Shown here in pieces: positions 3,001 through 27,932 of a stretch of DNA of 30,755 nt. Every line of letters begins with the position of its first letter. Position 1 is the stretch's first letter. The translations under genes were made by a program, and so were the position numbers. Source of the DNA: a virus. The notes beneath the pieces are model-generated. The model saw nothing but the letters and a program-made list of their open reading frames with translations. It searched no databases and was not told the origin of the DNA. The stretch spans positions 1-30,755 of the IMG/VR virus record IMGVR_UViG_3300021959_000236; one strand, 5' to 3'.

Positions 3001-5090
3001 GAGCCATAGCCACTGATGGCGTTTGACAGGTAAATCACACCGCCGGGTGAATAGAGTGTGGTGTTAGCAAGGTCAGCGGTAATGACATCCAATACCCGTG
3101 TGCCGCCACCCAAGTCAAACGAACCCGCTGGTACGGTCTTTTCTACCATGAGCATTGGTGTGGATTCGCCCATGCTCGCTCCTGTGAGGTCTATGGCGTT
3201 GTAATGCACCTCAACAAACGGAGCGAGGTTGTGGCTGGTCTTAAGGTCGGGAACATGCAAGAGAGCCACACGGCTCTCGGTTTCGGGAGTAAGGTGATAC
3301 AGACGGTTGTTCTCGTCAATGCTTCCTACTTCGGGCACTGGGCCTTTAAGCATAAACGGAGCGTACTTGAATCCGCTACCGCCAATAGCAATGAGTTCAC
3401 GCTTGCTCACTGGCATACCGTTATGCGTGATGGTGGCCACGCTGGACGAGTTCTCAATGCGGGCGATGGGTGCTTCCAGCGTTTCGCTGTAAAAATCAAT
3501 TAGCGAGTTCATCGCAAACATCTCGTCAATGTTACGAGTGTTAGAGTCATACGCCATTTGTACGATGTCAGCCGAGCCGTCAACCTGCTGGTCAATGATG
3601 AGGTCGGTTGGTTTAGGGTAGCGGCGCATATACTCATGGCCCGTGATGTGTGAGAAGGTGTGTCGCCCGCTGTGGCCCACTTGAAACAGCGTGTCAAGGT
3701 CAGCAGGCCAGTTCACGGCGTAGGCGTTAGTAGCCGTGTCGGTAGCCATTTGTGACGAGTACACCATACCGTGGTTTGCAATATCGCTTTCATCAAGAAT
3801 CATCTGCCCCGTCTTGTCAAAGATTTGCGTTCCGTAGTGAGGTGGCTGGTAAGGCTTGCCCGTACCGTTGTCAATCAACGAGTCAGCCCCAACGACCACG
3901 AAGTAGTTGTCCACATCGGTTGTTCGGGTGTGCAAGGCACCTCGCAAGCCGCCCGTACCGTTGATGAAGTCAATGTGAATACTGTTAAAGGTGACAACGC
4001 CTGTGTTTCCGTTGATGCTTTCCAACCGCACCCTTTCGGGTGGGGATTGGTTAGGCTTCTGTGTATTGCGGTTGATAGCACCGGGGTTAATCAGCAGGTT
4101 GTAAGGGGTGTGCGGTACGCTAATGGTGGTGGGTGTGCCACTGTTGGTGTAGTAATCCACGACCTTGTAATTACCCATACTATACGGTGTGGATGTAAAG
4201 GTCGTAGTTGGTGAGGATGAATCGTATGCTTTACCCGTCAAACGAGCGATGAGAGCCTGTGCGTCAGCCGCCGCCATCGTCAGCGTCGTGGTGCTGGCAT
4301 CGGTCACGGTATAGGCGGTGAACTCGTAAGACTCTTGCACGACATCTATCGGCTCTTCAAAGCGGAACAAAGCCGAGGTGGTTTGTCCCTTCACCGCCAT
4401 AGATGGCTGAAGCATGTTCTCGTCAAACTCATTTGAGAAGTGGATGGCCTCAATCGCACCACGAAACTCACCACCTTTACCACCGAGGTACACATGCTCA
4501 GTGGAGCGGGCAAGACGAGTTTCGGGTGGAATGTCTTGCTCGGAGACAATCTCGCCGTTGACAGCCAAGAACACACGGTTCTTGGTGATACCAGCCACAA
4601 CATGGTACAGCGGTCGGTTGTTGAAGTTGAGGTTGGTGGCCTCGCCATAATTGCCTGTGTCGTAACGGTTGTACGAATCGTGAATACCACCGTGTTCCTG
4701 TTGTGGGTACACGATGCCATCCCATCGGGTACTGGCATCATAGGCTGTGGCTAAGCGGAACACTGATGGGCCAGCGATGGACTCCACACTAACGCTAAAC
4801 ACAGCGGGGCCGGGAGTGTCCACCGTTCCCATTTCAAGGGTAAACTGCCCTTCTCGGTGGGCAATTACACCCCCACAATCGGGCACAACCCATGCCTCAA
4901 TGACGAAATCAGCAATTGTTTTATTGTTTATTGAAACGATGTCGCCGCTACCCTGTAGGGTCTTGGTCATCAGTTTGTTGCCGTCAGCATCCTTTACACC
5001 CGTCTTGGTGAAGCGGCCTTGAGGAATAATCACCGAATCGCTCACGCCGTCAAAAAAGAAGGCGTGACTACTGCGACCGATTGCAACCAT
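1..5090 (-). CDS. Large tail fibre / receptor-binding protein with LamG-like domain, 3' end beyond window
   Basis: An open frame of more than 1690 codons starts at ATG 5090 and runs off the left edge without a stop; sampled stretches along it (around 5090-4860, 2700-2400 and 120-1) translate cleanly. AGGTGA lies 4 bases before the ATG, just after the stop of the preceding tail gene. Residues about 45-210 look like a concanavalin-A/LamG jelly roll: a strand with FVIEAWV, then GQFTLEMG, then RPLYHVVAGITKNRVFLAVNG, then VYLGGKGGEFRGAIEAIHFS. The remainder is rich in Thr, Ser, Asn and Gly with beta-type patterning. As the last and largest gene after the tape measure and a distal-tail candidate, it fits a host-recognition fibre or baseplate protein. 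The LamG-like fold implies glycan or surface binding, which is inferred. No enzymatic motif was recognised. Confidence 0.75.
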   Translation of the reverse strand, partial: MVAIGRSSHAFFFDGVSDSVIIPQGRFTKTGVKDADGNKLMTKTLQGSGDIVSINNKTIADFVIEAWVVPDCGGVIAHREGQFTLEMGTVDTPGPAVFSVSVESIAGPSVFRLATAYDASTRWDGIVYPQQEHGGIHDSYNRYDTGNYGEATNLNFNNRPLYHVVAGITKNRVFLAVNGEIVSEQDIPPETRLARSTEHVYLGGKGGEFRGAIEAIHFSNEFDENMLQPSMAVKGQTTSALFRFEEPIDVVQESYEFTAYTVTDASTTTLTMAAADAQALIARLTGKAYDSSSPTTTFTSTPYSMGNYKVVDYYTNSGTPTTISVPHTPYNLLINPGAINRNTQKPNQSPPERVRLESINGNTGVVTFNSIHIDFINGTGGLRGALHTRTTDVDNYFVVVGADSLIDNGTGKPYQPPHYGTQIFDKTGQMILDESDIANHGMVYSSQMATDTATNAYAVNWPADLDTLFQVGHSGRHTFSHITGHEYMRRYPKPTDLIIDQQVDGSADIVQMAYDSNTRNIDEMFAMNSLIDFYSETLEAPIARIENSSSVATITHNGMPVSKRELIAIGGSGFKYAPFMLKGPVPEVGSIDENNRLYHLTPETESRVALLHVPDLKTSHNLAPFVEVHYNAIDLTGASMGESTPMLMVEKTVPAGSFDLGGGTRVLDVITADLANTTLYSPGGVIYLSNAISGYGSLMQESHTLIGDNTGGQDSDTELDYSRTPALYTPPNDVNAEPASPPFAVARSHNSSTHHSVYHRLAIEAMSSSQSDTITDEGAGKRTRQPTTDKTGTGVFDLGPTTHSSRVFEMFNIIDNVIITDEAGIIAKIFVQPSVKSRVNQLSLVRSLQSGDVPNIASIMFLMSRCRVRGVSKQESPESNMSTVVVTATGIADSFVNENVSAVGSGSPDSHVVKEIEPNAPVVTVTLGGPGQGGVNTKPTYDPSPLMRLPGSTRRSCAVQARVVDTNTSILSMSVAPLNNGSPDIKSWGTICFPKTGRIYLADGASAEYFLKNGAGFQFNETNAIQNRKFLDAAGVAYATFHDWCNATGVIEPTASTGTYTTSVYVFNDGDFDNDSLAQDGSTVNDRLFQSLDTVTHDYQLGTQYASTRAMVEIPVFPQQFFDHTELGIFPGPDNSMKLHIDATYTAHTWNPTPVGRRADDIGVADKSANSAYSYTINNQDYIESATILRVENATASHTHPSTGATTHTDHFHIYVSHPKMFPNGSNTDAFGNLKGINRLRRVFLTSGEWAVYDNDPATDGYLSIPSNATGGYHDGYSQTFFQNAIVGAKLHIGAGFRNETLIPVASDLELPSSDIEGRSPYYYDAANMKTQGGNLDYGLRQYVSAVEFKAGPLANPHAPRTITKCATTTITQAIAAPSGNSIILTLENASLFPDPPFNRNSSNAIDIEEGDLLYVGEIMLDTPVEVAYFSKNNGPISENSILVEPLNGVSITLGDIIGVEFRLTKAGHNMGILDDPANITVAEASTSLTKTDEIWEVKVAATSGSTTSIEIAPATLTNRFAHANTVGFNARKGDKLYIYSGGSYNYVGEVSAVVSDLTHPTASNTVVTLTANNATALSVGDDLYISSATVIQEDFDAILNRSWLYPYAQGGLRNGDTVWMNMTVNNPHAVEGLFAKSRGVFNENTVWKGFNGGRGTLDDNPRDSIPLENFLIGNSCLETAQNFAQHVNKTVEMNY

Positions 5091-5099
5091 CTCTTCACC

Positions 5100-6257
5100 T
5101 CAAAATATCCAATCAACTGGTGCAAAGTTGATGGTGTACGAATAAAGCGGTTCACCACCAAGTTGAACAAATGTAGCGTTAGCAACGCTTCCTTTGATGC
5201 CTGTGTACTTTCTGTTATTTTCAGTGAAAGTTGTACCCGCTGGTTTTGCATTGTTAGCAGTTTTGTCTATTGTTTCTCTCATGCCGCCAGTAGGCATGTA
5301 AAACAACGATTCGTTTGAGTTTACATTGGATGAAAATGGGATTTGAATAGCAATGATATAATCTCCATACTTTAAATTACTGCTTGAAATAGATTCAAAC
5401 TCAAGTTTTCCTTTCAAGATTTTTTCAAGGTTATTGGATATACCATGTATGCTCCCTCCGCCTATTGAAGCACCACCGCCACCATTGTTGCTGTTGTTCA
5501 GCACCGCAAACAATTCAGCCACTTTATCACCAGCACTTTTATTGCTTACGGCTGAAGAACTACGACCTCCCGAATACTGTGTGTGGTAAGGCTTTTGAAC
5601 ACCAAGACCGGGCGGGTATGAAGGGAAAGAAATGGTTTCATTGTTCCCGTTTTGTCCTTTGTTTACATTTGTTAATTCCACCGCAGTGCTTGTTGCACCA
5701 TCAATGGGTGAATTGATTTGATTTGCTGTTAATTCAAATGTACTGGTATAAGTGGTTACAAGCGTAACAAGGCTCGCCGCAATGTCCGATGCGCTCCTTG
5801 CAGAAGAATTATCATGGATAGTAATGTAATAACGCCCACCGTCAAGTCCTTCATTTGATAATGAGTTTTTAACCAGCCATATTTCATAACTGTTGTTGAT
5901 TTTGATAGAATAATCAGCATCAGCAGTTACACCATCCGCCATTCCATTTACGAGGTATGCGGCGTAAAAGTTCCAACGAAATGCTGAATCAGCAGGCAAT
6001 CCTGCTATGCGAGAAAAATCAATTACTGCACTGGCTTCTCGTTGTAATTCCCCAATGTTCAACAAATCATCATCTGTCATTACACCCTCAATAGTGATAA
6101 GAGATTTTGGAAGATTGAGGTCAAAAGCAAAACGGGAACCGCCAGCAAAGGGCACAGAAAGAGGTGAAACGCCCCTGTCCACATTCATGGTGAGGGTGGT
6201 GGCCATCAACTCAATGATGCCGCCATCATTGCGTACAAGACGGATTGGTGTACCCAT
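5100..6257 (-). CDS. Putative distal tail / baseplate protein
   Basis: A 385-residue protein whose ATG overlaps the tape-measure stop (ATGGG over TGA), with GGCGG upstream. The N-terminal 70 residues (TPIRLVRNDGGIIELMATT, then a short beta-rich stretch ending in LITIEGVMTDDD) resemble the opening of phage distal-tail or baseplate hub proteins, but this is a pattern judgement and no family was confirmed. The middle (about 200-275) is a Ser/Asn/Gly-rich low-complexity linker including an NNGGGGASIGGGS patch. The C-terminal 100 residues return to beta-type sequence ending in YSYTINFAPVDWIF. Its position between tape measure and fibre supports a tail-tip role. It could equally be a generic baseplate protein. 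Confidence 0.5.
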   Translation of the reverse strand: MGTPIRLVRNDGGIIELMATTLTMNVDRGVSPLSVPFAGGSRFAFDLNLPKSLITIEGVMTDDDLLNIGELQREASAVIDFSRIAGLPADSAFRWNFYAAYLVNGMADGVTADADYSIKINNSYEIWLVKNSLSNEGLDGGRYYITIHDNSSARSASDIAASLVTLVTTYTSTFELTANQINSPIDGATSTAVELTNVNKGQNGNNETISFPSYPPGLGVQKPYHTQYSGGRSSSAVSNKSAGDKVAELFAVLNNSNNGGGGASIGGGSIHGISNNLEKILKGKLEFESISSSNLKYGDYIIAIQIPFSSNVNSNESLFYMPTGGMRETIDKTANNAKPAGTTFTENNRKYTGIKGSVANATFVQLGGEPLYSYTINFAPVDWIF

Positions 6258-7480
6258 CAGTACCGCCCCCTCATGGTGGTGCCGCCGATGTTGCGGGCCA
6301 TCTCTTGCTGAATCATGTTGCCAATCTCACGAGCAAGGGCACGCTTGTCCGTGCGGTCGGTGATGCCGCTGGCATTGACTGTGATGTTGAAAGTGTTACC
6401 TTGTCCTCCAAAGCCCATCTCACCGGCTTTTTCAAGTGGCACTACTGCTTCTCTACCCGAAGCGTTGTCACCCAAAAGAGCAAGTGTAGGGCCATTTACA
6501 ATACCACCCTTAGCCAGTGCGGGAATACTCCAATTAGACAAATCCAACCCTACATTCCAATCATCACCGAAAGGATTGGGGATGGTTTTGGTGAACTTAA
6601 TATTTGCGAAAAGGTTGTTGATAGACTCAATTAAAGTGTTAATCGGGGCTTTAAGATAACCACCAATGGTTGTTCCAACATCACTAAAAGCGGTGCTCAT
6701 AGTGCTTACAATACCCGAAAAATCCCAATCAAAGATACCACCCTCGCCAAAGTAATAGTCAAAGGTAAGCCAATCGGGAAGTGTAAATGAGAAAATACTT
6801 GCCCAGTTGATGTCCCAATCAAAAATACCGCCTTCACCGAAGTAGTAGTCAAGGGTAAGCCAGTCGGGGAGGGTGAACGAAAACAGGTCACTCCACGAAA
6901 TGTTCCAATCAAAGACTCCGCCTTCACCAAAGTAATAGTCCAGCGTCATCCAATCGGGTAATGTGAAAGAAAAGATTGACCCCCAATCAATATCCCAGTT
7001 AAACACACCACCTTCGCCAAAATAATGGTCGTAGGTCAGTTCATCCGGCAGGTCAAAGTCAAACCACCCATCCCAGTCAAAGTCCCAATCAAAGACACCA
7101 CCCTCACCAAACCAGTGGTCGTAGGTCAATTCGTCGGGCAGTGTGAAGGAAAAGAGGCTATTCCAATTGATGTCCCAATCAAATACCCCACCTTCTCCAA
7201 ACCAGTAATCCCATGTGAGTTCTTCGGGCAGGTCGGGTAGGCTATCCCAAAGTTCACCAATTTTTGTTTTAATTGATTCCCACGCCTCATTAGCCTTTTC
7301 TTTGATGGACTCCCACGATAACTCGTCAATCTTGTCCTTAATCGGTTGAATCACATTGTCGTTGAACCACTTTGCCAAGTCTTTGAGTGCTTCAATCGCC
7401 ATCTGTCCAGCCGCTTTGAAACCGGGGCCAATCTGCGACACCATGCTGGACATGGAGGAAATCATGGAAATTAGCGACAT
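6257..7480 (-). CDS. Tail tape measure protein with six 30-residue repeats
   Basis: 407 residues, start ATG 7480 with GGGAGTGA upstream. The N-terminus (1-80) is helical and amphipathic (MISSMSSMVSQIGPGFKAAG). Residues 84-263 are six tandem 30-residue units with consensus LPDxLTxDYYFGEGGVFDWD followed by an aromatic tail. Residues about 325-407 show a typical tape-measure C-terminus: ALAKGGIVNGPTLALLGD, then GREAVVPLEK, then FNITVNASG and a basic helix. It follows the tail assembly chaperone pair, as in lambda-like tails. Tape measures set tail length and occupy the tube lumen; at roughly 0.15 nm per residue this one would imply a short tail of around 60 nm (inference). No lysozyme or peptidase domain is visible. 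Confidence 0.8.
   Translation of the reverse strand: MSLISMISSMSSMVSQIGPGFKAAGQMAIEALKDLAKWFNDNVIQPIKDKIDELSWESIKEKANEAWESIKTKIGELWDSLPDLPEELTWDYWFGEGGVFDWDINWNSLFSFTLPDELTYDHWFGEGGVFDWDFDWDGWFDFDLPDELTYDHYFGEGGVFNWDIDWGSIFSFTLPDWMTLDYYFGEGGVFDWNISWSDLFSFTLPDWLTLDYYFGEGGIFDWDINWASIFSFTLPDWLTFDYYFGEGGIFDWDFSGIVSTMSTAFSDVGTTIGGYLKAPINTLIESINNLFANIKFTKTIPNPFGDDWNVGLDLSNWSIPALAKGGIVNGPTLALLGDNASGREAVVPLEKAGEMGFGGQGNTFNITVNASGITDRTDKRALAREIGNMIQQEMARNIGGTTMRGRY
6692..7231 (-). repeat. Six tandem 90-bp repeats within the tape measure gene
   Basis: Six contiguous 90-base units encode residues 84-263 of the tape measure. Each starts LP[DE] and carries FGEGG[VI]F[DN]W at a fixed place; the last unit keeps the first half and diverges after DWDFSG. 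Third-position differences between units show the array is old or selected at protein level, not a recent slippage product. There are no spacers. Confidence 0.9.
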
Positions 7481-15284: not shown

Positions 15285-16385
15285 TCACTTGAGGTCACGG
15301 ATGGAACCATGACCGCCGAAGAAAGTCGTCCATAGTTCACCCATGGTACGGTACATTCCCTCTTGGCCGAGGCGGTTGATGGCGAATGGGTCGCCAGTTT
15401 CAATACCGCTCTCAAAGTATTGGGTTGGAATTGCAGTGCTGAAATACAGGTAGTCCGTGTCAAGGAAGTACATGCGGCTCAAAGTGTCGGTTTGAACATC
15501 CTTTGAGGGGATGATTGGAACACCGTTGTAGGTAGCCACGATGAAACCAGCCTCAATACCGGGAACACCTTTCACACCGTTGTAAGTAGGCGTAACACGC
15601 TTCTCTTCCATGAATCGCTGTTGCGATTGGAGGAGTTGCTGAAGGCGCATGAGCGTGTCGTACCCCGTAAGGATGACCTTGGGGTTACCACCACGAGTCC
15701 AAGTCTTTTGGAACAAGTCGTCCAATTGGTCAAGGGACAAGTTGCGGTCGGTACCACTGTTTTGGTTGTGCTCAGCCAACGACCACGAGTTTGCACTGCG
15801 GTCAATGGAGTACATGTCCTCATCAGTGGAGGCGGAGGCACCAACAGTAACACGGTCAAGGGACTCAAAGTTGTTACCAGCGGCGGTAGCCTTGTCGGTG
15901 GTCAGCATTTTGTTGATGTGCTCAGCGTGGTGCTTACCCATTTCTTCCTTCAAGATTGCACGGATGTCGCCCAGTCCATCGTCCTTGTCGGACAAGAACA
16001 TGGCTGTTTCGCTCATGTCAAAGGTGTGCACGACAGTCTTTGGCTTGGCGGCGATGTGCTGGAAGGTTGGCTTGGTGGTGTCGGGGAGCGTAGCGTTCTC
16101 AGCCACACCGCCACCAACAGTGAAGGAGGGGCGAGCCGTGATAACACGCCAGCCGCTTCGTTCCCAAGGTCGCTTTGGAAGGATGGAGAAGGCGTTGAAC
16201 TCTTGGTTCAACTGGCTCCAAACTTTGCGTCCATAAATCGCTTGGTAAGTACCAGCGGTCGTGGATAGCATTGGAGCGTCAGCCTTGAGCAACTCGCTAC
16301 CGGAGTAGGAGTAACCCATTGCGTTGCCTGCGCCATAGTAGTAGCGTTCCATGTCAGTAATGTTTCGGATGTAATCTCTTGCCAT
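15285..16385 (-). CDS. Major capsid protein, HK97 fold
   Basis: 366 residues, ATG 16385 with GAGGTGA 7 bases upstream. The order is N-arm (1-55, aromatic and Gly-rich), then VWSQLNQEFNAFSILPKRPW (about 55-74) leading into the E-loop and spine-helix region, a helix with HAEHINKMLTTD, a P/A-domain part with NPKVILTGYDTLMRLQQLLQ, and a beta end (VATYNGVPIIPSKDV, then RMYFLDTDYLYFSTA). Size and pattern fit HK97-type capsid subunits. It lies directly after the prohead protease/scaffold gene, the usual order. The N-arm is not separated by a long delta domain; scaffolding is supplied by the preceding gene. Confidence 0.85.
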   Translation of the reverse strand: MARDYIRNITDMERYYYGAGNAMGYSYSGSELLKADAPMLSTTAGTYQAIYGRKVWSQLNQEFNAFSILPKRPWERSGWRVITARPSFTVGGGVAENATLPDTTKPTFQHIAAKPKTVVHTFDMSETAMFLSDKDDGLGDIRAILKEEMGKHHAEHINKMLTTDKATAAGNNFESLDRVTVGASASTDEDMYSIDRSANSWSLAEHNQNSGTDRNLSLDQLDDLFQKTWTRGGNPKVILTGYDTLMRLQQLLQSQQRFMEEKRVTPTYNGVKGVPGIEAGFIVATYNGVPIIPSKDVQTDTLSRMYFLDTDYLYFSTAIPTQYFESGIETGDPFAINRLGQEGMYRTMGELWTTFFGGHGSIRDLK

Positions 16386-16408: not shown

Positions 16409-17254
16409 TCACTCTCCACGCAAAGTGCGTTGTGCGAGGGCGTGGACTTCATCCCACCCCATGTTTGCCAAGTCTTGCGTTGAGGGAATGTTGACGGAGG
16501 AAGCCGACTTTTTAATGGTCGTACCTGCTCCTGCGCCGATGTTGTCAATGCGCTCGGAAAGTGCCTCAATGGACTTCACGATTTCCGACAAAGGTGCTCG
16601 TGCGTCAAAGGCGGCTTTCTCAGCCTCAGCCTTTGCAACTCGCATCTCGTTGTTGAAACGAGCGGAGAAGTTGCCTTCAAGGTCGTTGCGGAAGTGTTGT
16701 TCCAAAGCGGCGGCTTTGTACACTTCGTAAGCGGCTTCAAGGTCAGCCTCACTCACATTGTCGGAGTTGAGGTAACCCTTAGCCATAGAGACAGGGCCGA
16801 GAGCACCAGCAGGGGTTCTACCGCCGCTGGAAGTGATAGCACTGATTGCACCCGTGGAAGGAGAACCGTTCTCCTGTCCTCGGCCACGGACTTGACCAGC
16901 GAAGTAGTCAGCACCGTCCACGGCATCGGGGTTGTCAAATCCACCAAGTTGAGCCTTTTCAAGAGCATCAAAGTGGTTTCGTGCGGCCAAGGTGTCCACG
17001 CCAGCCGACTTGAGGGTGTTTTCCATCCAACTCAAGTATTCTGCCGAGATAACATCGCTGTATTCGTCGTTGCTCTTTTCCATTTCATCATCCTCTTCTT
17101 TGGATTCTTTTTTGTCTTTCTTTTCATCGCCGCCTTCTTTCTTATCGGACATTGCTTCACGGAGTTGAGGAGGAAGTTCTCCCTTCTCCATAGCGTCCAA
17201 TCGTGCTTCAAGGCGTGACATAATTTCGCTCAAATCGCTGTTTTCTTCAGTCAT
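16409..17254 (-). CDS. Nested scaffold protein from an internal start
   Basis: An in-frame ATG at 17254 (codon 173 of the protease-scaffold gene) is preceded by AAAGGAGGAC with 8 bases between GGAGG and ATG, one of the best ribosome-binding sites in the window. It would yield a 281-residue scaffold beginning MTEENSDLSEIM without the protease domain. This mirrors lambda, where scaffold Nu3 is translated within the protease gene C. It explains how excess scaffold over protease could be made from one gene. Expression is inferred from sequence only. Confidence 0.75.
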   Translation of the reverse strand: MTEENSDLSEIMSRLEARLDAMEKGELPPQLREAMSDKKEGGDEKKDKKESKEEDDEMEKSNDEYSDVISAEYLSWMENTLKSAGVDTLAARNHFDALEKAQLGGFDNPDAVDGADYFAGQVRGRGQENGSPSTGAISAITSSGGRTPAGALGPVSMAKGYLNSDNVSEADLEAAYEVYKAAALEQHFRNDLEGNFSARFNNEMRVAKAEAEKAAFDARAPLSEIVKSIEALSERIDNIGAGAGTTIKKSASSVNIPSTQDLANMGWDEVHALAQRTLRGE

Positions 17255-17770
17255 GTTTGTGTCCTCCTTTAAAATGCGAAATTGTGCTTCGGGGTTAATG
17301 CCCTTTTCACAAATCGTCACCTCATGCAATTCCATTTTTGAAATCTCTTGGTAGTCGCCTTTTTCCATGTCGGACTTTCGCACTCGCTTGAATGCTTGTC
17401 CTCCAATGGAAAATCCACGAAGGTTTCCCTTGCGGATTTCAGCGGCTACTTCACGAGCCTTCTCAATGTCACTGCGGAGTTTTACTACAACGAACATACC
17501 TGTGTCATCCACTTCGGATTTCCACATTCGTCCGTTTGAATCAATGTACGAGTCAATGACTTCACCAACTTGAATGTTGGAATGAGCCAACTGCACATTG
17601 CGGTACTTTTCACCCTTCATGAAACCATCAAAGGCATCTTTTAGGGCGGAGCGAGTAATAAGGTCACCTTGTTTATCAACAAGTTCAACCGATGCGTAAC
17701 CAGCAACAACCAAATCGTTACCACTCTTGAGGAGAGTGATACCGTCAGTAGGTCGTTGAATGCTCAGCAT
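16409..17770 (-). CDS. Prohead maturation protease (S78-type) fused to scaffold
   Basis: 453 residues from ATG 17770. A GTG at 17806 would add 12 residues but would place the TATATATA box inside the coding region. Residues 1-165 match the HK97 prohead protease family: VVAGYASVELVDKQGDLIT (21-39), His63 in AHSN, Ser121 in GFSIGG, and ELHEVTICEKG at about 148-157, supporting the catalytic His and Ser. Residues 173-453 are scaffold-like: a coiled-coil start (LSEIMSRLEARLDAMEKG), a Lys/Glu/Asp-rich stretch, an Ala-rich helical region, and an end containing MGWDEVHALA. The protease matures the procapsid and normally degrades the scaffold. The scaffold also has its own internal start (17254). Confidence 0.85.
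   Translation of the reverse strand: MLSIQRPTDGITLLKSGNDLVVAGYASVELVDKQGDLITRSALKDAFDGFMKGEKYRNVQLAHSNIQVGEVIDSYIDSNGRMWKSEVDDTGMFVVVKLRSDIEKAREVAAEIRKGNLRGFSIGGQAFKRVRKSDMEKGDYQEISKMELHEVTICEKGINPEAQFRILKEDTNMTEENSDLSEIMSRLEARLDAMEKGELPPQLREAMSDKKEGGDEKKDKKESKEEDDEMEKSNDEYSDVISAEYLSWMENTLKSAGVDTLAARNHFDALEKAQLGGFDNPDAVDGADYFAGQVRGRGQENGSPSTGAISAITSSGGRTPAGALGPVSMAKGYLNSDNVSEADLEAAYEVYKAAALEQHFRNDLEGNFSARFNNEMRVAKAEAEKAAFDARAPLSEIVKSIEALSERIDNIGAGAGTTIKKSASSVNIPSTQDLANMGWDEVHALAQRTLRGE
17261..17270 (-). promoter_or_regulatory. Internal Shine-Dalgarno for nested scaffold
   Basis: Minus-strand AAAGGAGGAC lies inside the protease-scaffold coding region at the junction of the two domains, 8 bases from an in-frame ATG. 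Chance occurrence exactly at a domain boundary in the correct frame is unlikely. Confidence 0.8.
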
Positions 17771-17794
17771 TAAACATCCGACTTTCTGTTGTAG

Positions 17795-17802
17795 TATATA
17801 TA
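17795..17802 (-). promoter_or_regulatory. TATA-box promoter candidate before the protease/capsid genes
   Basis: TATATATA sits in the 39-base gap between the giant gene's TAG (17810-17812) and ATG 17770. Its centre is about 28 bases before the ATG, the spacing expected for an archaeal TATA box driving a leaderless transcript; only a weak GGATG precedes this ATG, unlike most genes here. A bacterial reading (TATATA as -10 with a TTGCTA about 19 bases upstream) is possible but less well spaced. It would let protease, scaffold and capsid genes be expressed separately from the upstream head genes. Confidence 0.55.
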
Positions 17803-17809
17803 CCACACG

Positions 17810-20800
17810 CTATTGCCGAGATAGCAAAGGTTGGTCATTATCGTATTCTATAGAGAGATTTTCACCTTCATCTGTTTGGACTTGAATGTGATTCAGTCGC
17901 TCTTTTTTCTTTTCTTTTCTTTCATCGGTGTTTTTCTTTTCACCATCAAAATCTGGAAGAGTGGCCTCATCACGCAATTGAGTTGGGCCACGAGGTGATT
18001 CTTGCGGCGTACCGACATCAATACCCAACCCCTTTGGCCCTGTCCAAGTCATCTTTTCTTTGGCGATTTTGTCCAAAGCCCGTGTAATCAGTTCCAAAGC
18101 CTTCTTCGTTTGGTTGGGCTTAAGCAAGCGGTTTTCATCATCATCATCAATGATGCCCGCACTGCCTTCTTCCATTTCTTCTTCCGTTGGCTTCTTTGGC
18201 ATATCTACTTCTACCTTCTTTGCCACATACCCTTTTACCATTAACGGAGCCACTGCCGACCAAAAAGGCATGAGACTTTCAGCCAGCACTACAGGATAAT
18301 CGGTTTTGGTAATACCGCTCATTGCACTCTTAGGAGAGTGAACATACCAAACATCGCCAATTTCTTCCATCTTGTACATTACTGTATCAACTTCGTTTAA
18401 CAGGATTTCAATATGACTCTCGTGGATTTGAATATCGTGAGGTACAAGAATTGGTGCAAATGATTTTGTCATAAGGTCAAGTGATTCGGTACTGGCGGCA
18501 CCCTCACCCTCTCCTTCACCTTCTAATTCTTTGACCTGTACATTATACACAGGGCGGTTGCTACGGTTCTTTTTGGAAATACCCGTGATGGATGCACGAA
18601 CAATGTCACCAACTTTGAACACTTTGCTTTGATTGTGGGCTGTGCCTACATCCATGTAATGTTCCCCTTTGTATTCCACTGCTCGGTTTCCAAGCCCTTC
18701 AATTTCAAGGATAGGGCCAGCACCCAATTGATAAGTGAACGGCCCAGTGCCTCTTCGGTCAAGAACGATGAAATTGAAGTCTCGGCTGTCACGGTACACA
18801 ATCCATTTTGGATGCCTACGCTCTCCACGCATGTAAGTGGACTTGTTATCACGCAACAAGATGTTATCATGGTCATTTTTGAGGTTCTTCACAGCGTCAA
18901 CCAGTCCTTCATCATCGGTCATGCGAGTATCATGTGGGCCGGGAACAATAACATGCTCTTGACTATCAAATTGCGAGCGAAGGATTTTCAAGCGTTCAAA
19001 CAGTTGCATTTCTCCCACATTGGTATCATCGTAGTTGATAATGTCAATAATGTTTAATTCATCTTCACCAAGAATACCGTCAAGTGTGTAATTCTTGTCA
19101 CTCATTTTGTCAAGAGCCTCTTTGGTAGCCTTGCGTAATCCTTTCTTTCTCCCATTTTCATCATACGCTGTGATTTCATCACCACTGCGAACAATGATGA
19201 TACGCTGTCCATCATACCATTTGCTTACAACCCATGACCCGCTGAAACCACGAAGGTGTTCAAGGTCGGCCAAATCAAAAATGCGGTGCATGGGGCGAAC
19301 TGCTGGACTCCACTTTGCATCGTCACTCTTGGACAATAACACATCGGGGTCAAGCAGGGAGGTAATCAGTTCGGTCATTTCGCTGGTTGCTATTGTAGTC
19401 ATGTTTTCACTGGCCACTTCTCCTGTTTCCATATTCATGCTTTGATGGGGGTTATTGGGGTACAACGGTGGAGGAGCATTAGCGTACACAAAGTCCGACA
19501 CATCTTTTCCATGAACCACTTGTGTGAGTTCTTCGGGTACACTATGATACAGACCCGGCCCTACATGGCTACCAACATGGATGTTGCCTTCACTGTCAAA
19601 CTCAGCACCAAGAGTGGGAGTCAATTCATACCCATGATGCCATGCACCGCTGTCAAAGTTATCGGTAATCGCCGTATTAACAGGACTCGCCGCTCCTACA
19701 GGTCGTTGACCAAAGCCTGCGGTTTCGGAAATATCTTCACCTGCTGTAAAAATACCCTCTTCATCATCCAATGCACGAGGGTCAAAATGCACGATGGTGT
19801 CAAGATTGTTTTTTGTGGTGCTTGTACTGCGGGCCTTTGTAGCACTTCCAGTTCCTTTTGAGTCGTGAATATCACCGCTAATGCTCCCAATACCAGCCGA
19901 AAGCATAGACATTTCAAACTGTGCAGGGTTAAGCATCATATTCATGTAACGAGGAATAGCGTGAGAATGATGTCCTTTCCATTCACTTTGCCCGCTTGCT
20001 TCTTGTTGAAAATGATTCAATGCTTGATGATAACCCTTTTCTCGTGCATGACGGAAGAAGCGTTCTTCATCGTTTAGTTCTTCTTCGGGCTTGTTCATCA
20101 ATTCTTCATCGCTAAACTGCTTGAGATTGATGCCGTCAATGTTAGGGATTTTACCACTGAGCAGTATATCTTTCACCGTGGATGCAAACAACGGCGTATT
20201 CATTTTTGAAGATAAGTTGATGAGTTCTGTTGCCTTTTCTTTTGCTACAGGAGTCTTTTCAACACCAAGAATCTTTAGCACTTCATCAACAGACATGTTG
20301 CTGTCAATCATTTTACCATCAGTAGATAGATGTTTGCCAAGTGTTTTGTGGAATGGATTTTGCACACCTTGTGAGGTGGCTTTTACCGATTTATCACTAC
20401 CATAATTAAGAGTAGTTAAACCGTGTACTGAATGAGGAACAGACGCAATGTATCGTTGAGCGTCACGCATCAATTGATGGTGGTTTGCAATGAAAGTAGC
20501 AGGGTCGTTGGGGTCAAACGCATTTGGGTCATGCTCAAGATATTTTGGAAGAATAATGTCCCGTGCTACTTGTGCAACAGTTTGGCGATGTCCTTTGTGA
20601 AGTTGCTCAAGTCGCCTTTGGTCTATTTCCCAATGTGTTGTTGGTTTTTTGATAGCCGCTTGCGCCTGTAATTGTTCTAATCGTTGAGTTGCTTGTCGTA
20701 ATTGTTCTCTCATTGGAAGAAGTTCTTCAAACGGAGTACCAGCAACTTGCTCTTCCATTAACCGTTCATTGAGCATTTCCACTTCTTCAAGCAGTTCATC

Positions 20801-23527
20801 TTCTTTTTGAGATGCAGGCAACATACCACCAAATTGCAAAAAGCGTGCTACAGCGTCAGCCTCACCAGCCGCTATTGTGGTTTTTGTCTTTTGATTTTTC
20901 TTGGCTGTTTGAATCTCTTGATTCATGTTTTGAATCACAGTGTCAATCCCATCGTTTAATTTTGTTTTATCAAACTCTCCAAGTTGCCTGTCTAACAAAA
21001 TCTTGTTTAACTCATCGTGATTTTCTTCGTTGTGCAGGTAGTCCAAAATAGCCTTTGGATTTTGTGTTCCAAGAATCTTTGATGCGTTGGTAATTGCCAT
21101 CATTGCATGATTCATTGAAGGGTTATCAAGAACACGGTTTTTCATTGAATCAAAAGAAAAACCGCTTTGTCCACCCCAACGCATGAAATCTTTGAACTCT
21201 TCACGAGTCGTTCCACCACTGGCCGACTCATCGCCACGCATCCAATCCTCAGCACTGGAAAATGATTTTTTTGCTGGTGTATTGGGGTGAAACATGCGCC
21301 CACCAAGCGTTTCCATGTTATGTGCAAGAATGGCATTAACATGACTACGAGAATCGGATGGTGATGCTCCGTAGGCCGTGTAGCCCCCAACATGCTGTGT
21401 AGGTACCACTGTGTGTGGAAACGCCATGCTTCGCAAAAACTTACCTACAAACTTATTTTTTAACTCGTTTTCCGAAAGATGTCTTATGTTGTATTCGTAT
21501 TGTGGATTGAGAGATGATTTGTGTTCAGTGTAGTTGTTTTTATTGGTGGCCCCTTCTGTGTTTGGGTGTTTCTTTGATGTACCAAACGGTGACAACAGGT
21601 TTTGCAAGTGTTCTGCACTTGAGTTGTAATTAAACTTGACATACTTTCCATCTTGTGTTGCTTCCCCTATGCTTTGCAATCGTAGAGGCATGAAATGATG
21701 AGCAAGCGTTCTGTTTAGTTCACTTGGTTGAATGTAATTGTCTCGGCTTTCTGTTAATTCATTAAACGGCGATACACCTTCTTCGTTAGCGTGTGTAGCG
21801 TTCAAGATTTCGTGGTATGTAGCAAGATTAGTTCCAGCACCACCTGTACTTTGAAATGGCGAAGCCCAAAAATGACCCGGCCCATATGTAAATCCATTTT
21901 CATGTTCTTGCCAGTATTTGGGTTTTTCTTCATCGGGATGTGGGCCGTGTGGTGAGGTGAAAAAAGCACGATGATTACGAATGTCTTTGATTTGACGATG
22001 CAATGAAGATTGTGTTTTTGCAACCGCTTCTATGTAATCAATCATACCAGCATCTACAATTGGTTCCTCTAACTTACCGTACAATGGATGGTCAGTAAGC
22101 AACTCTCGTGTTTTAGGGTCATAGCCAGCCAAATATAACAAGTCATCTTTGGACATTCTTACCTTTTCCAGTCCTCGCTCTTTACCCTTGAAATGAATAC
22201 GGGAAGCATCAAACAATTCATCATACGACATTTCTTTCATTGGTTCTTTGTGAATGTTAAGGCGAGGCAAATACTTCATTCGCTTATCAGCCCCGTAATT
22301 GTCCCGTATGGCTTCTTGAATGTGGCTGGCAATTGACTTATTATCAAACTCATCTAAAGGCTCGTGAGAAAGACGACCCAACGCTTGTTGAAGGAACATA
22401 CCTTCTTCACCTTTGGTGTAATCGTTATCGTTGTTTTCTTGATGGTAATGAGCGTTACGACCCATCATGGTCATAGGGCGAATAGCCCAGTTCATTTCGG
22501 GTGTCATTCGCATAAGAGCGTTGTACTTAAGGCGAGCAGAAGGAAACTTTTCACCGTTAGGCAGGGTAATCAAATCATGCTTGTCAAGCCCTTTTTCGTC
22601 AATGTGATTGACAATAGCACTGCGTTCTTCGGGACTGAACCACTCAAGGCCAAGCATGTAGCCGAGATGTCCAAGTCGGGTTGGGTGTTCCTCGTATTTG
22701 TCATCCAGCACCATGTTGTTATCTTCATCAGCCTCCCACATAGCGGCTCGGTCAGCAAAGTGTTCTTTGCGAAGTTGCTCTTTCATTTCAGCATTGGTCA
22801 TACCTTCAGCCAACAACTCCTCTTGCCGTTTATTGTTTTGCTTTAACCATCGGAAATAATCTCGCTCGTACAGGTCATGTTGATGATGAAGAAGTGTACC
22901 GTTTGGTCGGGTATCACCAATGATATTGACCTTTTTTCCTTCTCCTTGTTGAAACCCACCAACCAACGGATGTTTCTTACCAAGCGTATCAAAGAATTGT
23001 TTTTCCATTTCCTTTTCTTTTTCACTGTGGCCACCTAATGCCCAATTGCGTAGCATCTCCACATAAGCAGGTGTGCCCGTCACGGCGTTGGTACGAAGAA
23101 GAGGGTGGTTCACTTCATGGAAGGGAAAATGGTGGCGTTGGTATGGATGAGCACCGTCTTTGGGTTGATAATACGGCCACACCGCATGTCGGTTTTTAGG
23201 ATTAGTAGGGGATTGAAGGCCGTCTTTCCATACATGGTTGGTCGGCTCGCCGTGCGTGTGTTGCAAAGCAAACATGTAACCGATACCTTCGGGAAAATGG
23301 TAGTCCTTTTCCACATCAACACTGCTTTCTTCTTCTGCTTTAAGCACCATTTCAGCCGTTGCTTTCAACGACTTGAACAGCGGCTCAGTGGGAAGCGTGT
23401 GAAGGTTTTCAAACGCAAGAATGTATTCAGCCGCCGCAGTGCGAAGGTCAAGACCATCGTTCAATGATTTTAGCAACTCGTTGCTACACACATAGAAGTG
23501 GTCATCCATGTCCTCACCGCCAATCAT
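17810..23527 (-). CDS. Giant head-region protein with degenerate DNA-ligase-like domain
   Basis: 1905 residues; ATG 23527 overlaps the previous stop (ATGA), and an ATG at codon 7 has GGTGAGG just upstream. Residues 1 to about 1400 are largely unrecognised, His-, Asn- and Met-rich, with a coiled coil near 880-960. Residues about 1425-1580 resemble an ATP-dependent DNA ligase adenylation domain: motif I-like KWYDGQR (Lys1436, Asp1439, Gly1440, Arg1442), motif III-like YTLDGIL (1480-1486), motif IIIa-like LNIIDIINYD with LFERLKIL, motif IV/V-like NILLRDNKSTYMRGERR and KWIVYR. An OB-fold-like stretch follows (about 1580-1668), then an EGEGEGEG linker and an acidic/basic tail. Canonical motif I is KxDGxR; here Lys is one residue further away, and the motif IV and V lysines are replaced, so ligation activity is doubtful. 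Position between portal and protease suggests an internal virion protein. Confidence 0.7.
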   Translation of the reverse strand: MIGGEDMDDHFYVCSNELLKSLNDGLDLRTAAAEYILAFENLHTLPTEPLFKSLKATAEMVLKAEEESSVDVEKDYHFPEGIGYMFALQHTHGEPTNHVWKDGLQSPTNPKNRHAVWPYYQPKDGAHPYQRHHFPFHEVNHPLLRTNAVTGTPAYVEMLRNWALGGHSEKEKEMEKQFFDTLGKKHPLVGGFQQGEGKKVNIIGDTRPNGTLLHHQHDLYERDYFRWLKQNNKRQEELLAEGMTNAEMKEQLRKEHFADRAAMWEADEDNNMVLDDKYEEHPTRLGHLGYMLGLEWFSPEERSAIVNHIDEKGLDKHDLITLPNGEKFPSARLKYNALMRMTPEMNWAIRPMTMMGRNAHYHQENNDNDYTKGEEGMFLQQALGRLSHEPLDEFDNKSIASHIQEAIRDNYGADKRMKYLPRLNIHKEPMKEMSYDELFDASRIHFKGKERGLEKVRMSKDDLLYLAGYDPKTRELLTDHPLYGKLEEPIVDAGMIDYIEAVAKTQSSLHRQIKDIRNHRAFFTSPHGPHPDEEKPKYWQEHENGFTYGPGHFWASPFQSTGGAGTNLATYHEILNATHANEEGVSPFNELTESRDNYIQPSELNRTLAHHFMPLRLQSIGEATQDGKYVKFNYNSSAEHLQNLLSPFGTSKKHPNTEGATNKNNYTEHKSSLNPQYEYNIRHLSENELKNKFVGKFLRSMAFPHTVVPTQHVGGYTAYGASPSDSRSHVNAILAHNMETLGGRMFHPNTPAKKSFSSAEDWMRGDESASGGTTREEFKDFMRWGGQSGFSFDSMKNRVLDNPSMNHAMMAITNASKILGTQNPKAILDYLHNEENHDELNKILLDRQLGEFDKTKLNDGIDTVIQNMNQEIQTAKKNQKTKTTIAAGEADAVARFLQFGGMLPASQKEDELLEEVEMLNERLMEEQVAGTPFEELLPMREQLRQATQRLEQLQAQAAIKKPTTHWEIDQRRLEQLHKGHRQTVAQVARDIILPKYLEHDPNAFDPNDPATFIANHHQLMRDAQRYIASVPHSVHGLTTLNYGSDKSVKATSQGVQNPFHKTLGKHLSTDGKMIDSNMSVDEVLKILGVEKTPVAKEKATELINLSSKMNTPLFASTVKDILLSGKIPNIDGINLKQFSDEELMNKPEEELNDEERFFRHAREKGYHQALNHFQQEASGQSEWKGHHSHAIPRYMNMMLNPAQFEMSMLSAGIGSISGDIHDSKGTGSATKARSTSTTKNNLDTIVHFDPRALDDEEGIFTAGEDISETAGFGQRPVGAASPVNTAITDNFDSGAWHHGYELTPTLGAEFDSEGNIHVGSHVGPGLYHSVPEELTQVVHGKDVSDFVYANAPPPLYPNNPHQSMNMETGEVASENMTTIATSEMTELITSLLDPDVLLSKSDDAKWSPAVRPMHRIFDLADLEHLRGFSGSWVVSKWYDGQRIIIVRSGDEITAYDENGRKKGLRKATKEALDKMSDKNYTLDGILGEDELNIIDIINYDDTNVGEMQLFERLKILRSQFDSQEHVIVPGPHDTRMTDDEGLVDAVKNLKNDHDNILLRDNKSTYMRGERRHPKWIVYRDSRDFNFIVLDRRGTGPFTYQLGAGPILEIEGLGNRAVEYKGEHYMDVGTAHNQSKVFKVGDIVRASITGISKKNRSNRPVYNVQVKELEGEGEGEGAASTESLDLMTKSFAPILVPHDIQIHESHIEILLNEVDTVMYKMEEIGDVWYVHSPKSAMSGITKTDYPVVLAESLMPFWSAVAPLMVKGYVAKKVEVDMPKKPTEEEMEEGSAGIIDDDDENRLLKPNQTKKALELITRALDKIAKEKMTWTGPKGLGIDVGTPQESPRGPTQLRDEATLPDFDGEKKNTDERKEKKKERLNHIQVQTDEGENLSIEYDNDQPLLSRQ

Positions 23528-24872: not shown

Positions 24873-26619
24873 TGCTCAAGTTTTGTTGCATAGAAAGCGG
24901 TGGCCCTCGTTGTTGAACATTGCTAAATGGTGCGCCACTTCCCATACTATTTCGCCGTTCCGGTGCCGCAGGCCCACGGTTTCGCAAACCAATCCCTTGA
25001 CCACCGGGTTGTGGGGGAGGCATAATTTGCTGTGCCAACTGCGGTGGCATTTGTGGCCCTGCTCCCATCATTGGTGGCATACCGCCACCGGGTGGCATAC
25101 CGGGTGGCATACCGGGTGGCATACCGCCACCGGGTGGCATACCGGGTGGCATACCGGGAGGTGCTCCGCCGGGAGGTGCGCCTTGCTGTGGTTGAGGAGG
25201 TGGGGGACGCTTGTAAGTGAAACGGATGTCTCGGTTAGCCGTGTCCTCAATGAGTTCGGGCATAAAGCCCAATTGAGCCATGCGTTGCGCCACATTGAGT
25301 TCTTGTTCATCACGGCGTAGGCGTGTAATTTCATCTTCTTCTTCGTTTGGATAAAGCGTAAGTTTCCAATCATTAACATTCAATTGTTTAAGCATTCGTG
25401 GAAACAAGACTTCAGTGTACACTTTTTGTCCAAACTCTACGGCTCGGTTTGTTACCAGTATTTGCATACCTTCATTGTTGAGTCCACCCGATTTACCGCT
25501 ATCTACCATGAACACTGAAGATACGCCATAAAAAGCGGCCATACGATTTCGTATTTCGTCACGCACCGCAATATACTGCATCTCTTCCAGCGTGTCCATG
25601 AACTTAACCCAATTTACACCACCTCGTCCTGTAGCCGACTCAATACCGACCTTTGGTACATAATGAGGGTCACGCTCCATTTTTTCATCCACAGCCTTCC
25701 AAAAAGACTTCATGGATTCCAAATTATCTGTAGTAACTGATACAATGCCTTTTGGCATTCTTCGTTTTTGATATGCTGTGTAAATGTAATTGTCCATGGC
25801 TGTAAGCGTCATGGCTTGTCGCCACATTGTATTAACAGGCGAGCGACCATACAACTTAGAAGGCATATACTTGCTTAAATGTAATACTTCACCTTCTGCA
25901 AAGTATTGTGTTTTACCACTGCCTGCCATGTTCACATAATGAACATCTTGCAATTCAGCACCACATTGTTCACAAGTTTCATCTTCAGCATGTGTTTTAA
26001 CTTCATCACGATGAATTAAACAAATGCGATAACGGCCACCACGCACACCACGCTTGTCAGCAACAATACGCATAAAAATGGGGTCACCACGCATAATTTC
26101 TTTGACTCGGTAAAATGCTACTTCTTTGCTTTGTGGGTCAATAAAATACTCTTTTACGAGAATTAAAAAAGCGTCATCTACAATGTTGAGGTCACTTTCA
26201 ATTTCATTCATTACATGGAGAAACGATTGTTCCATGCTGTTTTCTTGCTTGAGAAGCCACTTGGGATAAGTCAATTCATCAATATCCGGTTTACGAACTG
26301 AGCCGCCGCACTCAGCACAAGATTCTACTTCACTTTGGTATTCTTCGTCACATACTGTACATTTGCGTGCAAACTTCTTTTCCCAATAATAACCACGGCG
26401 AAACATTTCTTGACGCAATTTTGCAAGCACAGTACGCAAAATCAACGATTCATTGCTTACAGCATAAAGAGCAGGAATGGTGATACCTTGAGCCATAACT
26501 GGCTCTTGAATACCGCTTGTCCAAAGCGGCATAGTAGGAGTAGGTGATTCTTTACGCCGAAATGGACTACCAAGAGCAGAAAGAAAACGAGAGATTCTGC
26601 TGTCATCATCTGCCATCAT
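24835..26619 (-). CDS. Portal protein with zinc-ribbon insertions
   Basis: 594 residues; tandem ATGs at 26619 and 26616 follow GGAGGG, and the second is slightly better spaced. Portal-like features: IPALYAVSNESLILRTVLAKL near 48-68, EVLHLSKYMPSKLYGRSPVN (about 244-263), then MTLTAMDNYIYTAYQKRRMPKG and the GVSSVFMVDSGKSGGLNNEG segment, which matches HK97/SPP1-type portals. Unusual are Cys87, Cys90, Cys101, Cys104 (CxxC-x10-CxxC) and Cys200, His203, Cys216, Cys219, two likely zinc sites inserted in the N-terminal half. The C-terminus (about 468-594) is a Pro/Gly/Met-rich tail with GMPP repeats. The portal forms the dodecameric DNA gate at one capsid vertex. Confidence 0.8.
   Translation of the reverse strand: MMADDDSRISRFLSALGSPFRRKESPTPTMPLWTSGIQEPVMAQGITIPALYAVSNESLILRTVLAKLRQEMFRRGYYWEKKFARKCTVCDEEYQSEVESCAECGGSVRKPDIDELTYPKWLLKQENSMEQSFLHVMNEIESDLNIVDDAFLILVKEYFIDPQSKEVAFYRVKEIMRGDPIFMRIVADKRGVRGGRYRICLIHRDEVKTHAEDETCEQCGAELQDVHYVNMAGSGKTQYFAEGEVLHLSKYMPSKLYGRSPVNTMWRQAMTLTAMDNYIYTAYQKRRMPKGIVSVTTDNLESMKSFWKAVDEKMERDPHYVPKVGIESATGRGGVNWVKFMDTLEEMQYIAVRDEIRNRMAAFYGVSSVFMVDSGKSGGLNNEGMQILVTNRAVEFGQKVYTEVLFPRMLKQLNVNDWKLTLYPNEEEDEITRLRRDEQELNVAQRMAQLGFMPELIEDTANRDIRFTYKRPPPPQPQQGAPPGGAPPGMPPGMPPGGGMPPGMPPGMPPGGGMPPMMGAGPQMPPQLAQQIMPPPQPGGQGIGLRNRGPAAPERRNSMGSGAPFSNVQQRGPPLSMQQNLSNALLNARRPRGQ
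25073..25158 (-). repeat. GMPP-coding repeats in portal C-terminal tail
   Basis: Imperfect 12-base repeats (plus-strand unit GGTGGCATACCG) interspersed with GCCACC, coding for GMPPGMPPGGGMPP-type sequence. They encode a flexible low-complexity tail. Confidence 0.8.
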
Positions 26620-27932
26620 AATCCCTCCGCATATACGCCTATCGTGTCAGCATTGATGCCCCACTTATCAAGAAGAGAAGCGGCTTTGTTTTTATGCTCT
26701 TTCCAATTGTTGTATGTTACCAATTGGTACAATTCTGTTTTTCGCATAGAATCTTTTTCCTCAATGTAATTCAAAACAGCCTTTGCCTGCAACGATTTAA
26801 GTTTAAGATGTGGAAGCACTCCTTTGAGAATATCACGAATGTCGTCCTTTGAAGAAAAAATAAGCCGATGAACAGGTTTGATGGTGTTTTTGGCCAACTT
26901 TTGGTCGGAGACTAAACGCCCACATCCAATCATTTTTTGCAATTCCTCGCAATGTATTTTCCCATTTTCACCGCTGGCTACAATGGTTACACGAGGGTCA
27001 CCACGCTCGGAAATGAAAATGCTTCCATCAGCATCAACAAAACCAGCCGTGTATGCCCAAATATCCTTAACAATGAAACCGTTTGTACCCTTTTTCACAT
27101 ATGTGTGCCGTTCACTTCCTTTGTACACATCTACTTCTTCACCATACATTTTGAGAAGTGAACTCATTTTTCCAGCCGTCATAGATTTGTTAAGGATATT
27201 ATAACCCCTACGCACAATTTCTTGACTTCCTAAAGCACCTTCTACTTCAAGTAATTTTGATGCATATTCAAGTGCGGCTATGTCCGTTTTTTTCAAATTA
27301 TCAATTTGATGTAAGGTATTTTTCCACATTGTTTGAGCATCCTTTTTCATTTCGTTAGCATCAACCCAATTTTGTTGGTCTATAGTGTCCCAATCTAACT
27401 TGTCGTTAAGGTGTTGCAATACAGTAATTGCCTTAAGGTATTGTTGGCAGGCTTTTTGCAAACTGGTACTTCTTGATTCACCAAACTTACGCAATGCTTT
27501 GAGAGAGCGGTCATCAAGACCAATGTTGCGTATAACATCTTCCATACCGTTTGCCCATGTAAGAGATTTGATTGTCAAATCAATTTCCATGGCTTTTACA
27601 CGGCGTATGTCTTTGATGATACCGTCATACTCTTCCCGAAACGCTTTGTCATGTCGGCGCATTTTGCGACACATACGAATAATAGTGTTAGCATCAGTAC
27701 CGTATTTGGTTTCAAACCATCCATCACCATTTACTGAAAATGATGATATATTGTCTTTTACTGATGAATCGTTTTTAACAAAAACAAGTGGCACTTGGTT
27801 AGGTTGAAAATAGGGATGTTGAGCCAAACTTTTCAATACATCGTGGGAAAAGTCGTCTGCAACCTGCAACGGCACATCGTACTCGTCACCGATAAACAGA
27901 CTCCCCCACATAATGACCACTGGATTGACCAC
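26616..27932 (-). CDS. Helical protein fused to a LAGLIDADG endonuclease domain
   Basis: 438 residues from GTG 27932 (AAGGA 8 bases upstream); ATG 27911 is an alternative. Residues 1-285 are mainly helical and charged with no recognised domain (for example GWFETKYGTDANTIIRMCRK near 71-90). Residues about 290-428 look like a LAGLIDADG homing endonuclease: TAGFVDADGSI at 295-305 with Asp300/Asp302 as acidic residues, then RVTIVASGENGKIHCEELQK, a Gly-Cys-Gly turn, and SLQAKAVLNYIEEKDSM. Only one LAGLIDADG motif is seen, so a dimer would be needed for cleavage. No intein splice blocks or C-extein follow. The N-terminal part may be a structural gene invaded by the endonuclease. Confidence 0.7.
   Translation of the reverse strand: MVNPVVIMWGSLFIGDEYDVPLQVADDFSHDVLKSLAQHPYFQPNQVPLVFVKNDSSVKDNISSFSVNGDGWFETKYGTDANTIIRMCRKMRRHDKAFREEYDGIIKDIRRVKAMEIDLTIKSLTWANGMEDVIRNIGLDDRSLKALRKFGESRSTSLQKACQQYLKAITVLQHLNDKLDWDTIDQQNWVDANEMKKDAQTMWKNTLHQIDNLKKTDIAALEYASKLLEVEGALGSQEIVRRGYNILNKSMTAGKMSSLLKMYGEEVDVYKGSERHTYVKKGTNGFIVKDIWAYTAGFVDADGSIFISERGDPRVTIVASGENGKIHCEELQKMIGCGRLVSDQKLAKNTIKPVHRLIFSSKDDIRDILKGVLPHLKLKSLQAKAVLNYIEEKDSMRKTELYQLVTYNNWKEHKNKAASLLDKWGINADTIGVYAEGL

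Follow-up and report, generated by a model that had tools for sequence, protein, structure and literature searches.

The sequence analyzed is the 30,755-nt virus record IMGVR_UViG_3300021959_000236, taken over its whole length and referred to below as the window (30.8 kb). Its minus strand carries head and tail genes, among which terminase, portal, protease, major capsid and tail proteins were recognized by profile matches. The features of the protease and capsid region are as follows:

16409–17770, minus strand: full-length protease-scaffold ORF (scaffold part predicted), from ATG 17770 to the stop at 16409–16411, 453 aa
17255–17770, minus strand: protease-domain part (aa 1–172), with an S78 match and invariant H63 and S121, ending with the ELHEVTICEKGINPEA motif
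17261–17270, minus strand: internal Shine-Dalgarno (SD) AAAGGAGGAC, GGAGG core at 17263–17267, pointed out by codon invariance and the host anti-SD
17252–17254, minus strand: internal ATG, predicted start codon, conserved in groups A and B of relatives
16409–17254, minus strand: nested product, predicted capsid scaffold, 281 aa, 30.3 kDa, pI 4.6
17771–17803, minus strand: putative promoter TATATATA, located some 32 nt before ATG 17770
15285–16385, minus strand: major capsid protein gene (PHROG major head protein, E 1e-62; SU10_MCP), with its own SD GAGGTGA

Other ORFs of the same strand presented features of their own. Between the terminase and the portal, the C-terminal part of ORF 26616–27932 (minus strand) resembled a LAGLIDADG homing endonuclease (AYTAGFVDADGSIFI) and gave no Pfam match at E 0.001. 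The 1905-aa ORF located upstream of the protease (17810–23527, minus strand) showed near its C-terminus a weak match to an ATP-dependent DNA ligase domain, below cut-off, and its better start is probably an internal ATG with the SD GGTGAGGAC. At 6257–7480 (minus strand), a short tape-measure-like protein contained about six repeats of a unit of 35–40 residues (LPDxLTxDYYFGEGGxFDWDxxW).

The S78 prohead protease match covered about the first 170 residues of the 453-aa ORF. Both Pfam Peptidase_S78 (E 4.3e-10, 40.4 bits for a curated cut-off of 21) and Peptidase_S78_2 (E 1e-7, 32.4 bits for a cut-off of 24) were found in this N-terminal part, and the PHROG match of the ORF was a head maturation protease. 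With profile scores above the curated cut-offs, the N-terminal part reads as a caudovirus S78 prohead serine protease. H63 and S121 were invariant columns in an alignment of 65 sequences, and from what is known of the family we take them to be the candidate catalytic residues. Translation of the full-length protein more probably begins at ATG 17770 than at the upstream GTG 17806, an alternative start which would give 465 aa; ATG 17770 is the aligned start codon among close relatives.

The C-terminal part is acidic (pI 4.6), predicted to be helical, and adjoins the major capsid gene, which begins 24 nt after the protease-scaffold stop. The helices were best supported at residues 341–412 of the 453-aa protein in an AlphaFold model of low overall confidence; the mean pLDDT of this model of the fusion was 48.6, which made it unfit for a fold search. 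No named family, scaffold or other, was matched by the C-terminal part in the family libraries searched, and the profile search of solved structures gave chance-level matches only. Based on its position, its predicted helices and analogy with known systems, we predict that this part is a scaffold.

The protease domain ends with ELHEVTICEKGINPEAQFRILKEDTN, followed by AAAGGAGGAC and the in-frame ATG 17254, and the minus strand around the site reads ...CGC ATT TTA AAG GAG GAC ACA AAC ATG ACT GAA... The initial annotation had described a near-ideal ribosome-binding site 8 bases before an in-frame ATG at the protease/scaffold boundary, together with a predicted product of 281 residues. Both descriptions hold: GGAGG lies 8 nt before ATG 17254 at the end of the domain (6 nt when counted from the end of the whole AAAGGAGGAC), and this ATG shares the frame of the protease ORF, with 281 codons to the common stop at 16409–16411. 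The predicted N-terminal peptide of the 281-aa product is TEENSDLSEIMSR, or the same with Met. Of the 266 internal ATGs lying in frame in the window genes, only ATG 17254 had GGAGG 4–10 nt upstream. Most of the window genes carry an SD, and the anti-SD pairing energy of the internal site (−10.0 kcal/mol) falls within the range of most other gene starts of the window (−8 to −12 kcal/mol). Also, the SD region was somewhat more accessible than other positions (unpaired fraction 0.56 vs 0.45). Given the amino acids K-E-D-x-x-M, AAGGAGG arose at the site in 17.6% of synonymous shuffles, so that the case for the site is weak when this single sequence is considered. The comparative evidence, read from the sequences of relatives, is strong.

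Close relatives (group A) were collected by two scans. The first one, queried with the protein, gave 80 loci. For the second one the capsid protein served as anchor, so that the site played no part in the selection; it added 80 loci, down to 55% identity. The boundary ATG was present in 92/92 distinct group A sequences. The codons AAG GAG GA(C/T) were found in each of the 76 sequences free of indels between KED and M, and the capsid-anchored set, picked regardless of the site, showed equal conservation of the SD codons. In these 76 indel-free relatives, AAG GAG underwent 0 synonymous changes against 12.45 expected and was the only adjacent codon pair with zero synonymous changes among 247 tested; GAG is a minority Glu codon in group A genes (about 25%). 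The p-values attached to this invariance are approximate, because the statistics treat tree tours as independent. A coincidence of codon usage kept by common ancestry could account for such a motif, as illustrated by the frequency of AAGGAGG in shuffles of the window sequence and by the roughly 5% of conserved columns that show codon invariance in any case. However, the neighbouring synonymous sites are saturated (15.5 changes at L180 and 11.5 at R178) when K181 and E182 have none, and this explanation, already disfavoured, appears highly improbable to us. The site is conserved at the RNA level.

In 16 other group A sequences, one or three extra codons were found at KED-M, and GGAGG was mostly gone. 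Where the ATG was shifted, an SD-like stretch had often shifted with it and kept the register (GGAAGTGACAGAAATG, GGATGTGACCAAGATG), and stretches like GGAAGTGA or GGATGTGA sit five nt before this ATG, in the register where GGAGGTGA would pair. One clade of eleven of these indel sequences (L068–L070, L074, L075, L077–L080, L096, L100) kept the ATG, but the SD-like stretch before it pairs weakly (−5 to −6 kcal/mol), and this clade is the chief weakness of the SD argument. Throughout group A the amino acids K-E-D are conserved, including in the clade whose SD codons are lost, which would be in line with a K-E-D-x-x-M cleavage site or linker and with a scaffold freed solely when the full-length protein cleaves itself at the boundary between its domains, in the manner of P2 gpO. 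S78 proteases are commonly self-processing. Nevertheless, cleavage on its own leaves the invariant wobble bases unexplained, as it does the variable linker and constant ATG/GTG/TTG of the distant relatives described below, and we consider it quite unlikely as the sole source of the scaffold. Cleavage may take place in addition to internal initiation.

Synonymous constraint in the ORF was strongest not at the SD but at aa 105–114 (453-aa numbering), about 70 codons upstream. This patch, AAGGCTCGTGAAGTAGCCGC (17461–17442, or 17428–17461 with flanks, minus strand), showed a ratio of 0.28–0.38 of expected changes in the 92 relatives. No conserved RNA fold was detected in it (RNAalifold z 0.8), its 20-mer is single copy in the window, and the constraint was not found in group B. 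Separately, another ATG in frame with an SD-like stretch, some 50 codons beyond the internal start (KKEDDEM region), was considered and rejected: codons rich in Lys, Glu and Asp mimic SDs there, and its ATG is not conserved.

The distant relatives (group B) were founded on a relative located on a contig of the Poseidoniales genome AG-422-I20. This relative is 38% identical, and its 106-kb contig carries a 65% relative of the capsid protein. The viral contig C2 of this host genome is mostly N. Scans from the AG-422-I20 relative gave 82 distinct sequences spanning the boundary. The linker that follows ILK differs in length and sequence in group B, but a start codon was found just before the scaffold part in 82/82 sequences, as ATG in 78, GTG in 3 (L317, L328, L332) and TTG in 1 (L208). 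Since Met is swapped for Val or Leu solely through GTG and TTG, the pattern fits selection on the start codon and not on the residue. The same pattern bears on the idea that the internal SD, which sits exactly at the domain boundary, slows ribosomes between the two domains for folding and yields no separate product. Such pausing needs no start codon at a fixed spacing, nor would it restrict the exchange of M to GTG and TTG, and we give this idea very little credit. The initial annotation had proposed to check the conservation of the site in homologues, and the outcome it named as a refutation, a lack of conservation, was not observed: besides the SD codons of indel-free group A sequences, the start codon was kept in all intact relatives of the two groups.

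Anti-SD pairing in group B reached a median of −7.5 kcal/mol at the site vs −3.2 kcal/mol at neighbouring positions; several subclades pair weakly, near background. The 16S rRNA of AG-422-I20 ends with GGATCACCTCCT, which is the canonical anti-SD. The internal SD thus matches the ribosomal anti-SD of the host of a related virus, and ribosomes of this host could read the internal site. With a close relative in a Poseidoniales genome, the present record presumably also belongs to a virus of Poseidoniales. No named magrovirus record was present among the database matches of the proteins.

The full-length start differs from the internal one. A TATA-like box (TATAWATACCATAACA type) was conserved 28–33 nt before the full-length ATG in group A relatives. 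At −36 to −24, the motif was detected in 49/54 distinct relatives vs 3/60 at the capsid gene start, for a background of 0.8% per 13 nt, and in a wider set it was found in 63/79 group A sequences vs 4/73 in group B. No strong SD was observed at the full-length start (mean −4.6 kcal/mol over 54 relatives). A TATA-like box about 30 nt upstream together with the lack of a strong SD suggests that the mRNA of the fusion has no leader or almost none, and this box is probably, in group A, the promoter of such an mRNA. A check of leaderless starts in the host genome gave no TATA peak, with only 27 genes presenting clear intergenic upstream regions.

We hypothesize that internal initiation at AAGGAGG/ATG 17254 supplies free scaffold beside a protease-scaffold fusion encoded by the same region, and we regard this as very probable. 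One mRNA region would then give two proteins with a common C-terminus. The full-length 453-aa protein, a capsid maturation protease joined to its scaffold, would be started at ATG 17770 on a leaderless or short-leader mRNA transcribed from the TATA promoter just upstream. Ribosomes would also bind the internal AAGGAGG and initiate at ATG 17254, giving the 281-aa scaffold alone. Both products would be made, and an excess of scaffold over fusion, as the initial annotation had predicted, is plausible by analogy. The free scaffold, in many copies, would drive the capsid protein of the adjacent gene to assemble into procapsids, and the common C-terminal region would carry the fewer protease copies, as fusion, into the shell, the two products co-assembling. 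Inside the shell, the protease would later degrade the scaffold. The leaderless start and the assembly roles in this scheme are those which the layout and the examples of lambda and the herpesviruses lead us to expect. More tentatively, and with somewhat more doubt than belief, we suggest that archaeal tailed viruses set the protease-to-scaffold ratio by initiating in two ways on the same message, without a leader at the full-length start with its TATA box and through the SD at the internal start. To our knowledge, such a pairing of leaderless and SD initiation has not been described for capsid genes.

Comparable arrangements are known from other viruses. In phage lambda, the scaffold gene nu3 (5132–5737) lies in frame within the 3′ portion of gene C (4418–5737), which encodes the capsid protease; the two have a common stop and are followed by head genes. 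The initial annotation had assigned the present locus to the lambda C/Nu3 arrangement, and this stands for the layout, with a predicted in-frame internal start at the domain boundary and a common stop. It does not stand for homology: the annotated peptidase family of lambda C is S49, whereas the protease here matches S78, and no GGAGG precedes nu3 in lambda, whereas one precedes the internal start described here. Moreover, lambda has a bacterial host and no leaderless start, in contrast to an archaeal virus with a probable leaderless start. The herpesvirus UL26/UL26.5 pair follows the same logic of a fusion plus scaffold alone, but UL26.5 is made from its own transcript, the herpes protease belongs to family S21 and the hosts to another domain, whereas here an internal SD would be the signal. 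UL26 is a protease-scaffold fusion, and the separate in-frame scaffold gene UL26.5 starts in the middle of UL26 (PMC12474303).

The nearest annotated relatives are the haloarchaeal tailed viruses HVTV-1 and HCTV-1 (Druskaviridae), with the same gene order, about 30% identity for the protease and 35–37% for the capsid protein. In these viruses (L082, L083), too, the protease domain is followed by an ATG in frame (KNMGDNES, KNMTDDND); it has no SD (−3.6 to −3.9 kcal/mol), and their records annotate only a protease of 637–665 aa and describe no nested product. A nested scaffold may be produced in HVTV-1 and HCTV-1 through another initiation mode. Magroviruses, which are viruses of marine group II archaea, share the host group of the AG-422-I20 relative. 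Published magrovirus genomes carry a capsid protein and a prohead serine protease, and no scaffold is mentioned in this survey (PMC10160649). In the literature searched, which covers few subscription journals, no earlier description of an archaeal virus with a nested scaffold was found.

Being contained in the protease gene, the predicted scaffold escapes gene calling, and the nested product would thus put a name on a missing component of capsid assembly. The locus would also be a natural test case for archaeal internal SD initiation next to a probable leaderless start. The space-saving economy of nested protease and scaffold, known from lambda and the herpesviruses, would be extended to tailed viruses whose hosts are abundant, uncultured marine archaea. 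Also, the linker drifts but the start codon stays across two divergent virus groups, which suggests that the need of tailed-virus capsids for a separate supply of scaffold is ancient and has been strongly maintained.
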